Shown: positions 41,626-46,054 of the stretch, piece after piece | Layout of the letters: every line of letters starts with the position of its first letter | Position numbering within the stretch: the stretch's first letter is position 1 | Origin: Vulcanimicrobium alpinum | GTDB lineage: Bacteria > Vulcanimicrobiota > Vulcanimicrobiia > Vulcanimicrobiales > Vulcanimicrobiaceae | Reading direction: 5' to 3' | Assembly: GCF_027923555.1 (NCBI RefSeq) | Contig: NZ_AP025523.1 | Location: forward strand, 1,116,001 to 1,180,000 | DNA length: 64,000 nt | Notes under the pieces: model-generated | What the model saw: only the letters and a program-made list of their open reading frames with translations | The model's database searches: none | What the model was told of the DNA's origin: nothing | Program-made: the position numbers and the translations under genes

Positions 41626-42938
41626 GCGCGCCGGCGATCACGGCGCGCGAAGTCGCGCTGCAGGTCTGCCGCGACGTCTTCGGGCCGCATCCGCGCGGCG
41701 CACGCGAAGCGCTCGACTACCGTCTGCGCAAGGCGACGCTCGACGCACGCGATCGCGCCTTCGCGACCGAGCTCGCATACGGCGCGATCAAGATGCGCCG
41801 CTATCTCGATTTCGAACTCGAGCCGTTCGTCGGCGAACGCGCGAAAACGCTCCCGCAGCCGATCGCCGAGATCTTGCGCTTGGGGACGTATCAACTGCGC
41901 GCGATGCACGGCGTCGAGGCGTACGCCGCCGTCTCCGAGAGCGTCGGCCTGGCCCGCAAATACGGGCATAAAGGGACCGCGGGACTGGTCAACGCCGTGC
42001 TGCGCCGCGTCGCCGACGCGCCGCCGCGCGACGCCGATCTCGCGACCGCCGCCTCGCTCCCGACCTGGGTCGTCGCGCATTGGCGCGAGCGCTTCGGCGA
42101 GGAACGCCTGCCGGCGATCCTGGCGGGCGTCAATGCGCCGCCCGCCGTCGCGCTCGCCGTCGATCTGCGCAACGCCGATCGCGGCGAGGCGCAGAACGCG
42201 CTCGCCGGCGCAGGGGTCGTCGCTGCGCCGAGCCCGCTCGCCCGCGACGTGCTCGTCCTCGCGCCCGATGCGTCGGCGGCCGACATCGAGCACCTCGCGC
42301 AGCACCGCTGGCACCTGCACGCCGAAGCCGCCGCGCTTCCGGTCGATCTGCTCGATCCGCAGCCGGGCGAGCGGGTCGTCGAACTGTGCTGCGGGCGCGG
42401 GAACAAGACCCTGCAGATCGTCAGCCGCACGGGCGACGCGGGGACCGTCCTCGCCGTCGACAGCGACGCGCGCAAGACCGCCGAACTCGCGAAGCGCCTC
42501 GCCGCCGCCGGCGCCGTCTCCGTCGCGGTCGTCACCGCCGACGCGACCGCGATGCAGGCCGAGGCAGACGCCGACGCCGTGCTCCTCGACGCGCCGTGTT
42601 CGGGCCTCGGGATCCTCGGCCGCCAGCCCGAGGCGCGCTGGCGCAAAACCCCCGACGATCCCGTCCGTATGGCGCTGCTGCAGGCCCGGCTCATCGCGAC
42701 GGCGGCGCGCAGCGTGAAGCCCGGCGGGCGGCTCGTCTACGCGGTCTGTTCGACGGACCGGCGAGAAGGAGAAGACGTGATCGCACAGTTTCTCGCCGCG
42801 CACGCGGCGTTCGCGCGCGCCGCGCTCCCGGCGCGCTACGCGCCCGCGTCGACGGCCGCCGGCGACGTGCTCGTCCCGCCCGGGATCGACGGGCGCGACG
42901 GCTTTTTCATCGCCGTGCTCTCGCGCGCGATCCCGTGA
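41622..42938 (+). CDS. rsmB: 16S rRNA (cytosine-967-C5)-methyltransferase RsmB
   Basis: A 438-residue RNA methyltransferase. The N-terminal NusB-like RNA-binding domain spans about 5-135, followed by the Rossmann methyltransferase with the AdoMet loop VVELCCGRGNKTLQI. The two catalytic cysteines are Cys326 in DAPCSGLG and Cys376 in YAVCSTD. It methylates C967 of 16S rRNA. The GTG overlaps the fmt stop (GTGA), and the end overlaps the first FHA gene in the same way. The def-fmt-rsmB order is widespread. Confidence 0.94.
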   Translation: MSAPAITAREVALQVCRDVFGPHPRGAREALDYRLRKATLDARDRAFATELAYGAIKMRRYLDFELEPFVGERAKTLPQPIAEILRLGTYQLRAMHGVEAYAAVSESVGLARKYGHKGTAGLVNAVLRRVADAPPRDADLATAASLPTWVVAHWRERFGEERLPAILAGVNAPPAVALAVDLRNADRGEAQNALAGAGVVAAPSPLARDVLVLAPDASAADIEHLAQHRWHLHAEAAALPVDLLDPQPGERVVELCCGRGNKTLQIVSRTGDAGTVLAVDSDARKTAELAKRLAAAGAVSVAVVTADATAMQAEADADAVLLDAPCSGLGILGRQPEARWRKTPDDPVRMALLQARLIATAARSVKPGGRLVYAVCSTDRREGEDVIAQFLAAHAAFARAALPARYAPASTAAGDVLVPPGIDGRDGFFIAVLSRAIP

Positions 42939-43543
42939 ACGTCTTCGCCCGGATCGAGTCCGCGTGCGCGCGCGTCGTCGAAGACGCGTTCGCCCGGGTC
43001 TTTCCGAGCGCGCTCGATCCGGCGCAGATCGGACGCCGGCTGATCGCGACGGCGCAGGCGAATGCCAGCGACACGTACCTCGTGCGCGTCCACCCGACCG
43101 ACTACGCGCGGCTCGGCCCCGATCGCGACTTTCTCGAGGGCCGTTGGAGTGCGATGCTGCGCGAAGCGGTCCCCGACCGCACGACGGCGCGCGTGGTGCT
43201 CGACGAAGACCCCGACATCGTCGCCGGTTCGCTCGCGATCGAAGCGGTGGTCGACGAGCGGATGCAGACGCTCGCGTTCGAACGCGCCGACGGCACGCAG
43301 ATCGCCCTTTTCGACGGCTTGTCGATCGGACGCTCCGGCGACAACGACGTCGTGCTGCGCGACGCGCGCGTCTCGCGGCGGCACGCGCACGTCGCCGCCG
43401 ACGCGAGCGGCTGGAGCATCGTCGATGACGATTCGTCCAACGGCGTCTTCGTCGACGGCGCGCAGGTGCGCCGCGCGCGGCTCGACCGCGGCAGCGTGGT
43501 GACGATCGGCGAGACGCTGCTGCGGGTGGTGGACGCGGGATGA
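42935..43543 (+). CDS. FhaA-like protein: DUF3662 plus FHA domain
   Basis: A 202-residue protein. The N-terminal DUF3662 domain (about 1-115; MNVFARIESACARVVEDAFARVF) is followed by a C-terminal FHA domain (about 128-200) with IGRSGDNDVVLRDARVSRRHA and DDSSNGVFVDG, the phosphothreonine-binding loops. In Actinobacteria FhaA links Ser/Thr kinase signalling to peptidoglycan synthesis via MviN and PbpA. The linker between domains is much shorter than in mycobacterial FhaA. It is translationally coupled to rsmB and to the next FHA gene by GTGA and ATGA overlaps. Confidence 0.88.
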   Translation: MNVFARIESACARVVEDAFARVFPSALDPAQIGRRLIATAQANASDTYLVRVHPTDYARLGPDRDFLEGRWSAMLREAVPDRTTARVVLDEDPDIVAGSLAIEAVVDERMQTLAFERADGTQIALFDGLSIGRSGDNDVVLRDARVSRRHAHVAADASGWSIVDDDSSNGVFVDGAQVRRARLDRGSVVTIGETLLRVVDAG

Positions 43544-43956
43544 CCGATCCGCGCCTGGTGACGCTCGGGCTGTCGTGCGCGTATCTCGCCTACGTCGTCG
43601 TGATGCGCGACCGGCGCGGTCCGCCGCCGGCGCGTGCGATCGAGGCGTCGATTCCGACGCGGATCGAGTTGACCGTGTTTCATGCGGGAACGATCAAGAC
43701 ATCCCGCTTCGGCAGGCGTATCCTGGTAGGGCGGGCACCGAGCGCCGATCTGCGGCTCGACGATCCGCAAGTCAGCCGGCTCCACGCAAGGATCGAGATG
43801 CGCGATGACGGAGTGTATGTGGACGATCTCGGGAGCCGCAACGGGACGCTCGTCGACGGGAGACCGGTGACGGCGCCGCGGCGGCTCGAGGTCGACGATG
43901 AGGTGACCGTGGGAACGGCAGCGTTGGTGTTCCGAGGAGTCGGTGCATGGAGATAG
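43540..43956 (+). CDS. FhaB/FipA-like membrane-anchored FHA protein
   Basis: A 138-residue protein with a short N-terminal membrane segment (LVTLGLSCAYLAYVVVM, about 6-22) and one FHA domain (about 58-135). The phosphothreonine-binding elements are VGRAPSADLRLDDPQVSRLHA and LGSRNGTLVDG. This is the FhaB layout known from the actinobacterial cell-division cluster. The start overlaps the preceding stop (ATGA) and the end overlaps the PP2C-like gene by 10 bases. Confidence 0.9.
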   Translation: MTDPRLVTLGLSCAYLAYVVVMRDRRGPPPARAIEASIPTRIELTVFHAGTIKTSRFGRRILVGRAPSADLRLDDPQVSRLHARIEMRDDGVYVDDLGSRNGTLVDGRPVTAPRRLEVDDEVTVGTAALVFRGVGAWR

Positions 43957-44747
43957 CGGTCGGTTCACGTCCGGGCGCGCCGCAGCGCGGTGACGACGAA
44001 GCCTACGTTGCCGAGATCGTCGCGCCGGGCGTCGTCCTGCTCGCCGTCGCGCACGGGTTCGGACGGATTCGCGAGCGGCCCGCGCCGGCAGTCGCCGCGC
44101 AAGCCGTGCGCGACAGCCTCAAACGCCGCGTGCGCAGCGAACGCCGCGACCCGCGCGCCGCGCTCTCGGCGGCGTTTGCGACCGCAAACGCGCGCGTCTA
44201 CGCCCACTCCGGCAGTACTGAAGACTACGTTGCGTCGGGGACGTCGCTCACCGCCGCGCTGATCGTCGGCGATCACGCCTTCGTCGCGCACGTCGGCGGG
44301 ACGCGCGCCTACCTGGGCCGCGAGGGGACGCTCGCGACGCTCACCGTCGACGATGCGCTCGGCGAGGGGACGCTGCGCCTGATCACCCGCACGCTGGGGA
44401 CGCAGCCGACGCTCGAACCGTCGCTCGCGCACGTCCGGCTGATGCACGGGGATGCGCTCGTCCTCTCGAGCGGCGCGCTGCACGAACTGCTCGCCGACGA
44501 CGAGATCGCCGATGCGCTGCGCGCCTCCGCGTCGTCGGAAGACGTCACGGCGCGGCTGCTCGCGATCGCGGGGATCCGCGGTGACGGCGCCGGCACGGTG
44601 ATCGTCGGGCGCGCCTTTCACGAATCGGCGCCCGACGCGAACGCGCGCCGTCCGCAGGTGCGAGAAGCCGCGATCGCGCTCGCGGCGATGATCGCGGCGA
44701 CGATCGTCGCGATCTTCATGCTGCACGCATTGTTCGCCGCCGCGTGA
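43947..44747 (+). CDS. PP2C-like membrane protein lacking metal-binding aspartates (probable pseudophosphatase)
   Basis: A 266-residue protein with a PP2C-like domain (about 1-220) and a C-terminal membrane helix (AAIALAAMIAATIVAIFMLHALF). It occupies the place of pstP in the fhaA-fhaB-pstP-rodA order. However, the acidic residues that hold the two metals in PP2C are largely replaced: the DGxGG motif reads AHGFGR, the VGDSR motif reads VGGTRAY and the SDG motif reads SSGALHEL; only the RGDDEAY near the start keeps acidic residues, and GTS (88-90) is kept. Catalysis as a metal-dependent phosphatase is thus unlikely. It may act as a phosphoprotein sensor or scaffold on the FHA proteins. The fold call rests on pattern and context. 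Confidence 0.75.
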   Translation: MEIAVGSRPGAPQRGDDEAYVAEIVAPGVVLLAVAHGFGRIRERPAPAVAAQAVRDSLKRRVRSERRDPRAALSAAFATANARVYAHSGSTEDYVASGTSLTAALIVGDHAFVAHVGGTRAYLGREGTLATLTVDDALGEGTLRLITRTLGTQPTLEPSLAHVRLMHGDALVLSSGALHELLADDEIADALRASASSEDVTARLLAIAGIRGDGAGTVIVGRAFHESAPDANARRPQVREAAIALAAMIAATIVAIFMLHALFAAA

Positions 44748-46054
44748 GCGCGAGCGGCGCGCTCGCCCGGCTGCGGGCGTGCGGGCCGATGATCGTCGCG
44801 CTGGCGATCGCGGCCGTCACGCTGCGGCTCGCGCCGCCGCACGCGCTGGTCCCGGCGTGGCTTCCGGTCGCATTGGGCCTGCTGGCGCTGGCGTGGCCGG
44901 CGATCCGGCCCTCGTCGGTCACGCGCGACGACACGCTGCCGGCGCTGGCGATCGTGCTCTCGTCGATCGGCGTGGCGGTGGTCGCGCGGCTCGACCCCGC
45001 GCTCGCGCAAAAACAGATCGTGTGGCTGGCGTTTTCGCTGGTGCTCGCCGTCGCCGCCGGACCGGCGTTCGACCGCTTTCGCGTGCTCGCGGCATACAAG
45101 TACATCTGGATCCTGGCCGCGATTCTGCTGTTCGCCGCGCTCGCGCTGTTCGGTCAGGAAGTCAACGGCGCGCGGTTGTGGATCCGCCTGGGTTCGGTGC
45201 AGTTCGAGCCAGTCGAAGTGATCAAACTGCTCGTCGTCCTGTTCATGGCGTCGTATCTCGCCGAGACCGCCGACGTGATCGCGCATACGCGGCCGTGGTC
45301 GCTGCGCGCGAACGCGAAGTATCTCGGCCCGCTGTTCCTGGGCTGGGGCGTCTCGATGGGGATCCTCGTCTTCGAGCGCGATCTGGGGATGGCGACGTTG
45401 CTGCTGGCGACGTTCATCGCGATGCTCTACGTCGCGACGCGGCGCGTCGATCTGATCGTCGGCGCGACCGCGGTCTTCGGCGTCGCGGCGTTTTGGGCGG
45501 CGACGCATTACGCCTACGTCGAGCGGCGCATCGCGGTGTGGCGCGATCCGTTTCACGATCCGCTCGGCGCCGGCTATCAGGCCGTGCAGTCGCTGTTCTC
45601 GCTCGCGAACGGCGGGCTGTTCGGCACCGGCTACGGCCAGGGACGTCCCGACTACATCCCGAGCGTCGCGACCGATTACGCGTACGCGGCGTACGGCGAG
45701 GAGTGGGGCGCGCTCGGCTCGATCGTTCTGCTGGCGGTGTACCTGGCGCTGGTGCTGCGCGCGCTGCGCGTCGCGGGCCGCCAGCCCGATCTGTACGCGA
45801 AGCTCCTCGCGACGGGACTCGCCGCGGTGTTCGGGTTTCAGATCGTCATCATCGTCGGCGGGGTGCTCCACCTCTTCCCGCTCACCGGGATCACGCTGCC
45901 GTTCGTCTCGTACGGCGGCAGCTCGCTGGTGACGAACTTCCTGCTCGTCGCGCTGGTGTGGGCGATCTCCAGCGAACCGCGTCGTGCGGCCGACACCTAC
46001 GCCGGGGTGTCGTCCAGGGGGGAACCGGGTGGCTTGACGAGGGAAGGCGTATAG
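44744..46054 (+). CDS. FtsW/RodA/SpoVE family (SEDS) peptidoglycan glycosyltransferase
   Basis: A 436-residue polytopic membrane protein with about 11-12 segments. Family motifs: GARLWIRLG near 140, FERDLGMATLLLAT with the conserved Asp near 207, SVATDYAYAAYGEEWG near 306 (usual VxTDFIFAxxGEExG) and FPLTGITLPFVSYGGSS near 378. The usual FQPSE segment reads FEPVE. SEDS proteins polymerise glycan strands with a class B penicillin-binding protein. No PBP gene follows here. The GTG overlaps the PP2C-like stop (GTGA). RodA and FtsW roles cannot be separated from sequence alone; position favours the RodA/FtsW of the actinobacterial fha cluster. Confidence 0.92.
   Translation: MSASGALARLRACGPMIVALAIAAVTLRLAPPHALVPAWLPVALGLLALAWPAIRPSSVTRDDTLPALAIVLSSIGVAVVARLDPALAQKQIVWLAFSLVLAVAAGPAFDRFRVLAAYKYIWILAAILLFAALALFGQEVNGARLWIRLGSVQFEPVEVIKLLVVLFMASYLAETADVIAHTRPWSLRANAKYLGPLFLGWGVSMGILVFERDLGMATLLLATFIAMLYVATRRVDLIVGATAVFGVAAFWAATHYAYVERRIAVWRDPFHDPLGAGYQAVQSLFSLANGGLFGTGYGQGRPDYIPSVATDYAYAAYGEEWGALGSIVLLAVYLALVLRALRVAGRQPDLYAKLLATGLAAVFGFQIVIIVGGVLHLFPLTGITLPFVSYGGSSLVTNFLLVALVWAISSEPRRAADTYAGVSSRGEPGGLTREGV

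Follow-up and report, generated by a model that had tools for sequence, protein, structure and literature searches.

Catalysis by PP2C phosphatases requires a pair of metal ions, M1 and M2, held by conserved aspartates; in PstP numbering, M1 requires the equivalents of D38, D191 and D229, and M3 those of D118 and D191. TAB1 is a eukaryotic PPM pseudophosphatase whose metal ligands have been lost. In Actinobacteria, PstP is encoded in a conserved fhaA-fhaB-pstP-rodA-pbpA-pknA-pknB locus; many of these bacteria have no other annotated Ser/Thr phosphatase, and PstP is essential in mycobacteria (PMC6554272). Dead PPM domains are a known kind of protein, described already in RssB and PHLPP2. The PPM domain of Escherichia coli RssB lost its activity and became an adaptor, and RssB of Pseudomonas aeruginosa kept the activity (PMC12143880, PMC10705548). 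In PHLPP2 the metal ligands of the PPM fold are lost, and this ancient loss of activity is traceable on the tree (PMC12002173). An inactive PstP in an fha-pstP-rodA operon was not found in the literature searched, an absence that is weak evidence because that literature was open-access only; the initial annotation of the present sequence likewise knew of no described case. The words "inactive", "degenerate" and "catalytically" do not occur in a paper on the classification of bacterial PP2C (PMC12088040).

In this work we analyzed a 64,000-nucleotide stretch (the window) from the genome of Vulcanimicrobium alpinus, apparently strain WC8-2, which was the first representative of Eremiobacterota to be cultured (PMC9758169). 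The genome is a single contig of 3,508,363 bases and is 99.65% complete. The window contains an operon of overlapping genes in the order fhaA-fhaB-[PP2C]-rodA (Table 1), which is found in nearly all members of the genus and family with a complete locus. The PP2C-like gene is one ORF running from ATG to TGA; its first 10 bases are shared with the fhaB-like gene and its last four with rodA. Lying between fhaB and rodA, as pstP does, it is a positional orthologue of pstP, and the Pfam assignments of its neighbors (FhaA_N and FHA, FHA, FTSW_RODA_SPOVE) confirm the fha-pstP-rodA position originally proposed for it. The phosphothreonine-binding residues are kept in both FHA proteins (GR, SRRH and SSNG in the FhaA-like protein; GR, SRLH and SRNG in the FhaB-like one).

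Table 1. Features of the fha-PP2C-rodA operon and of the PP2C-fold protein, in window coordinates.
Feature	Position	Strand	Evidence or remark
fhaA-like gene	42935..43543	+	FhaA_N 1.3e-8 and FHA 8.8e-16 (Pfam)
fhaB-like gene	43540..43956	+	Hydrophobic N-terminus and FHA domain (FHA 3.4e-20)
Putative PstP-position PP2C-fold pseudophosphatase, 266 aa	43947..44747	+	Pfam, phmmer, AF2, Foldseek, profile alignment
His36 codon, replaces first metal Asp (PstP D38, ADG motif; reads AHG)	44052..44054	+	
Gly118 codon, replaces GDSR Asp (PstP D118; reads GGT)	44298..44300	+	
Gly176 codon, replaces TDG/SDG Asp (PstP D191)	44472..44474	+	
Asp213-Gly214-Ala215, site of lost DN motif (PstP D229)	44583..44591	+	Asp column deleted
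C-terminal transmembrane helix, residues 238-266	44658..44744	+	AF2 model, helix survey of relatives
rodA, GTG start	44744..46054	+	FTSW_RODA_SPOVE 1e-74

Compared with the actinobacterial system, the protein resembles PstP in its position between fhaB and rodA, in its PP2C fold, in having a cytoplasmic domain with one membrane helix, in its FHA neighbors and in the presence of a PASTA kinase in the genome. It differs from PstP in that the four metal aspartates are missing, the flap is shortened and there is no extracytoplasmic tail. The locus differs as well: pbpA-pknA-pknB do not follow within the window, and the PASTA kinase is encoded elsewhere in the genome. Moreover, PstP is essential in mycobacteria, whereas relatives of the present bacterium have lost the gene by deletion.

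Membership of the PP2C family was supported by several searches. The protein matches Pfam PP2C (1.1e-8, 35.6 bits; curated cut-off 20.3) and PP2C_2 (5.8e-6, 26.4 bits; curated cut-off 24), and among solved structures the nearest in sequence are those of Stp1 (2pk0, phmmer 4e-15) and PstP (1txo, 5e-11). An AlphaFold2 (AF2) model built from 36 orthologues reached a mean pLDDT of 88, and its top Foldseek matches in the PDB were tPphA (2j86, E 7e-17) and PstP (1txo, E 7e-16). The best matches were all PP2C, with target-normalised TM values of 0.74-0.86 for the bacterial PP2Cs among the top 14. Structure prediction and comparison with PstP thus agree with the N-terminal PP2C-like domain and single membrane helix of the initial annotation. 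In addition, the protein is 44-50% identical to intact orthologues of family f1 at the same locus, and a profile built from intact sequences alone matches it with E 7e-64, which points to shared ancestry with the intact PP2C of this locus in relatives.

The membrane helix occupies approximately the last 29 residues and nothing follows it, so that the layout of PstP is only partly matched. The helix is retained in most heavily eroded relatives too. As to the tail, PstP orthologues of families f2 and f3 (L015, L026, L027) carry about 70 extracytoplasmic residues after the helix, and in family f1 (L013, L016, L001) the tail is gone or reduced to a few residues, also in members with an intact phosphatase. 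Since it is already missing or very short in these intact f1 members, its loss preceded that of the active site.

The metal positions were taken from a profile alignment of 87 orthologues. All 23 intact orthologues have aspartate at each of the four. In the genus of the window, position 36 is histidine and position 176 is glycine in 10 out of 10 complete sequences, position 118 is glycine or alanine, and the column of the DN-motif aspartate is a gap. The aspartate of the NED motif is replaced by Glu18 in all 10 sequences, and R14, in the old phosphate-binding arginine region, is loosely kept (7/10). We discarded sequencing or assembly error as the source of these replacements because the same residues recur in the 10 independent complete sequences of the genus. 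The initial annotation had read the DG, GD and DG motifs as AHG, GGT and SSG. The first two readings stand; the third was one residue off in register, since LVLSSGAL aligns without gaps to LVLCTDGV, which places Gly176, and not a serine of SSG, at the metal position. The consequence is the same, as the aspartate is lost in either register. The fourth metal aspartate, that of the DN motif, was absent from that annotation; it is lost too, which makes the conclusion of inactivity stronger. With the M1/M2 aspartates gone, PP2C activity is therefore very unlikely. Judging by its residues, the protein is almost certainly no PP2C phosphatase, as every catalytic metal ligand is missing; it would be unable to bind the two catalytic metals and hence to dephosphorylate a substrate.

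It should be noted that the intact PstP orthologues of the class (L013-L036, L040, L133, L158) mostly read Q-R-x-N-x-D and not R-x-x-N-E-D. Their phosphate-binding arginine lies one residue nearer than that of PstP, and their flap region is shortened.

Might the protein nevertheless be an enzyme, with His36, Glu18 and other acidic residues binding metal and supporting phosphatase or other hydrolase activity? His36 and Glu18 are invariant in the genus and capable of binding metal, D169 and H115 are kept, and the first two residues could in principle hold one metal, which is a counterpoint to the non-catalytic reading preferred below. However, the equivalents of D38, D118, D191 and D229 are H, G, G and a gap, and H36 is replaced by glutamate in the sister genus g19. 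Other acidic residues at the metal positions, which the initial annotation regarded as evidence against inactivity, did not emerge: the genus alignment contains no conserved acidic residue near the lost positions. A residual enzyme of this kind is thus highly improbable. Two candidate ligand sets were rejected: His36 with Glu18 as compensating ligands cannot alone make the M1/M2 pair, and Asp213 as a shifted or substitute ligand varies between D, G and E within the genus.

To place the loss in the class, we searched 117 of its genomes with the profile and obtained a match in 93. The survey of the 87 orthologue loci, an analysis already proposed with the first reading of the sequence, revealed that 23 have all four metal aspartates and 55 have none. 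Two of the remaining loci keep three together with D118E, one keeps three together with D191S (L024), four retain D36 only, and two are fragments.

Toward the genus of the window the changes form a stepwise series: D118E only in g6 (L020, L136); loss of D118, D191 and D229 with D36 retained in g53 (L157); D36E in g19 (L012, L140); and D36H in the genus itself. A second inactive group of genera (e.g., L034, L037-L047, L120-L132, L141-L156) encodes a shorter protein that lacks the C-terminal motifs and also the arginine of GDSR. Finally, in at least four genomes (G029, G036, G019, G033) the gene has been cleanly deleted and the operon reads FhaA-FhaB-RodA, the FhaB frame being separated from the beginning of the RodA match by approximately 20-35 bases. 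Ten g24 genomes, including G033, gave no profile match, and it was in G033 that the clean deletion was read at the locus. The loss is common to many genera, graded, apparently repeated, and in some lineages ended by deletion of the gene.

Two distant genomes of the phylum carry rodA, a gene for an FHA protein and one for a Hanks kinase on one contig, a few kb apart (L109 in G055, L110 in G059). No PP2C was found in these two genomes, which are 62% and 75% complete, respectively; there too, a PASTA/FHA system may thus exist with no phosphatase of the PstP type.

The number of inactivations was estimated from two trees. The tree of the PP2C gene itself, which includes decayed sites and long branches, unites the two inactive groups (99/96). 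In the tree of concatenated RodA, FhaA and FhaB, the second group and the deletions form a clade (100/99) in which the four deletion genomes are nested on at least three branches, while the genus of the window, g53, g19 and g6 adjoin intact genera. The near inactive group thus sits among intact and nearly intact members. The penalty for constraining every inactive lineage to one clade is 22 log units (AU p = 0.034), and the minimum number of changes between intact and non-intact states on this tree is three. One shared loss for all inactive forms is therefore disfavored, as the neighbor-gene tree separates the groups, though the AU rejection is modest. The neighbor-gene tree suggests that there were probably two inactivations, with L024 as a third.

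We next consider selection on the gene. By a simple Nei-Gojobori estimate, the median pairwise dN/dS within the genus is 0.20 for the PP2C gene (nine sequences), 0.18 for RodA, 0.23 for FhaA and 0.13 for FhaB; these values measure constraint on the sequence and not which function is constrained. The ORF is open in all 11 genus members, and six residues (H36, R120, R148, D169, G176, A177) are invariant in 10 out of 10. Synonymous sites are near saturation between distant genera, so that only ratios of nonsynonymous change are informative there. The dN of the dead PP2C is about 1.1 times that of RodA in the genus, and the PP2C to RodA ratio of pN among the intact sister genera is about 1.4. Thus, in the genus of the window the PP2C gene is under purifying selection, and the dead form evolves no faster than the live one. 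Loss of the catalytic residues under persisting purifying selection is what would be expected of a pseudophosphatase, and it fits the suggestion of the initial annotation that the protein became a binding module.

The main rival to such a role is that the gene is a relic in slow decay, a dispensable phosphatase with no function of its own that survives only through its overlap with fhaB and rodA. The graded erosion across genera, the truncated forms in sister genera and the clean deletions, nested on at least three branches and leaving FhaB followed directly by RodA, all speak for decay and suit the sister genera well. The selection observed in the genus of the window is accommodated less well: dN/dS is low, the rate relative to RodA does not exceed that of the intact gene, all reading frames are open, and the replacement residues are themselves invariant. 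Besides, the overlap with the neighbors is no barrier to loss, since clean deletions exist. For the window protein we therefore regard slow decay as unlikely, although it deserves serious weight.

We consider that the protein is a pseudophosphatase of PstP type, kept as a binding module or adaptor anchored in the membrane, and assign this reading a probability of about 0.65. The computed observations behind it are the homology, the predicted fold, the loss of all four metal aspartates, the single anchor, the overlapping operon, the purifying selection, and the presence of kinases and FHA readers. On this view the protein would descend from PstP, a membrane-anchored PP2C phosphatase, and be catalytically dead, while its PP2C-fold domain in the cytoplasm would still bind a partner at the membrane; this would be why the gene is kept. 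The existence and identity of the partner we infer; FhaA, FhaB, RodA and the PASTA kinase are the likeliest candidates. Because the phosphate-binding arginine is only partly kept, a scaffold for protein-protein contacts is more probable than a trap for phosphopeptides. Such an adaptor or scaffold could tune cell-wall synthesis, as E. coli RssB acts after inactivation of its PPM domain, while the kinase/FHA circuit would operate without a PstP-type eraser. In sister genera the same gene would have decayed further and been deleted at least three times. These deletions imply that a non-catalytic role is specific to the lineage and dispensable for the operon; the adaptor role may also be weak, since genera in which the gene was cleanly deleted have the same kinases and FHA proteins.

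Among known systems, E. coli RssB offers a parallel, being an inactive bacterial domain of the PPM/PP2C fold that has active relatives and was retained as a protein-binding module. It differs in belonging to the RsbU/SpoIIE branch, in its fusion to a response regulator, in being soluble and in its C-terminally truncated domain, whereas the window protein is PstP-type, membrane-anchored and almost full-length, its ligands having been lost by point changes. TAB1 and PHLPP2 differ as eukaryotic multidomain proteins with unrelated partners.

To assess the signaling context, we searched 60 related genomes for kinases, as had been suggested together with the initial annotation. PASTA domains and Hanks kinases were both found in 60/60, including genomes with a dead or deleted PP2C. 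The window genome has six kinase matches; in its PASTA kinase (L112) the HRDVKPAN and DFG motifs are intact, and this kinase is encoded about 0.56 Mb from the operon (1.72 Mb versus 1.16 Mb on the contig). The FHA residues (GR, S-R/K-x-H, N-G) are retained in essentially all loci, also in those from which the PP2C gene is deleted. The alternative offered by the initial annotation, that phosphorylation has been lost, is contradicted by these results. In its full form it would mean that phosphorylation at the operon was given up and that both the FHA proteins and what remains of the PP2C are relics. Disappearance of the PstP-type phosphatase would be expected from it, but persistence of the kinases and of the pThr-binding residues, also where the gene is deleted, and the strong constraint on FhaB are against it, leaving it barely credible. 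Loss of kinases or of FHA function was accordingly rejected.

A broader proposal is that the PASTA-kinase/FHA circuit repeatedly shed its PstP-type eraser in one family, the dead enzyme serving here as a membrane-bound regulator of RodA or the FHA proteins and pThr being cleared by other phosphatases or by turnover and dilution; we put this forward only tentatively. Intact, partly eroded, dead-but-kept and deleted versions coexist in one conserved operon in which PASTA kinases and FHA readers persist, and this family of soil bacteria is a natural experiment in living without PstP. It makes a non-catalytic role of a PstP-type protein at RodA, and the resetting of the pThr signal without a dedicated PP2C, testable; as the host appears to be a cultured strain, both the protein and the strain are obtainable.

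Dephosphorylation may have passed to another phosphatase, so that PstP was released from this task and what became of its gene was incidental. SpoIIE/RsbU-type PP2C genes are numerous (60/60 relatives; 16 matches in the window genome) and could dephosphorylate some targets, and a separate PP2C gene of PP2C_2 type lies within a vWA-PP2C-kinase triad in the window genome and one other. However, SpoIIE-type enzymes are abundant also where PstP is intact and so do not track its loss, and the separate gene was found in only two out of 11 genus members by a search with PF00481 and the profile of intact orthologues; replacement by such a second gene was rejected on this count. The genome search with PF13672 misses the window gene, although its hmmscan score is above the cut-off. 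A takeover is possible but on the whole doubtful, and it is compatible with retention of the pseudophosphatase as a binding module rather than exclusive of it.

The SpoIIE/RsbU-type PP2C genes are strongly expanded, with up to 23 in G028. The triad, which we take to be TerY-P-like, is located at C1:340000-345000 in the window genome (L111) and is also present in G006 (L072). Its PP2C is the only other PP2C_2-type phosphatase in the window genome, and its metal aspartates look intact (VSDGAG, IGDGAI, LTDGL, TDDD).
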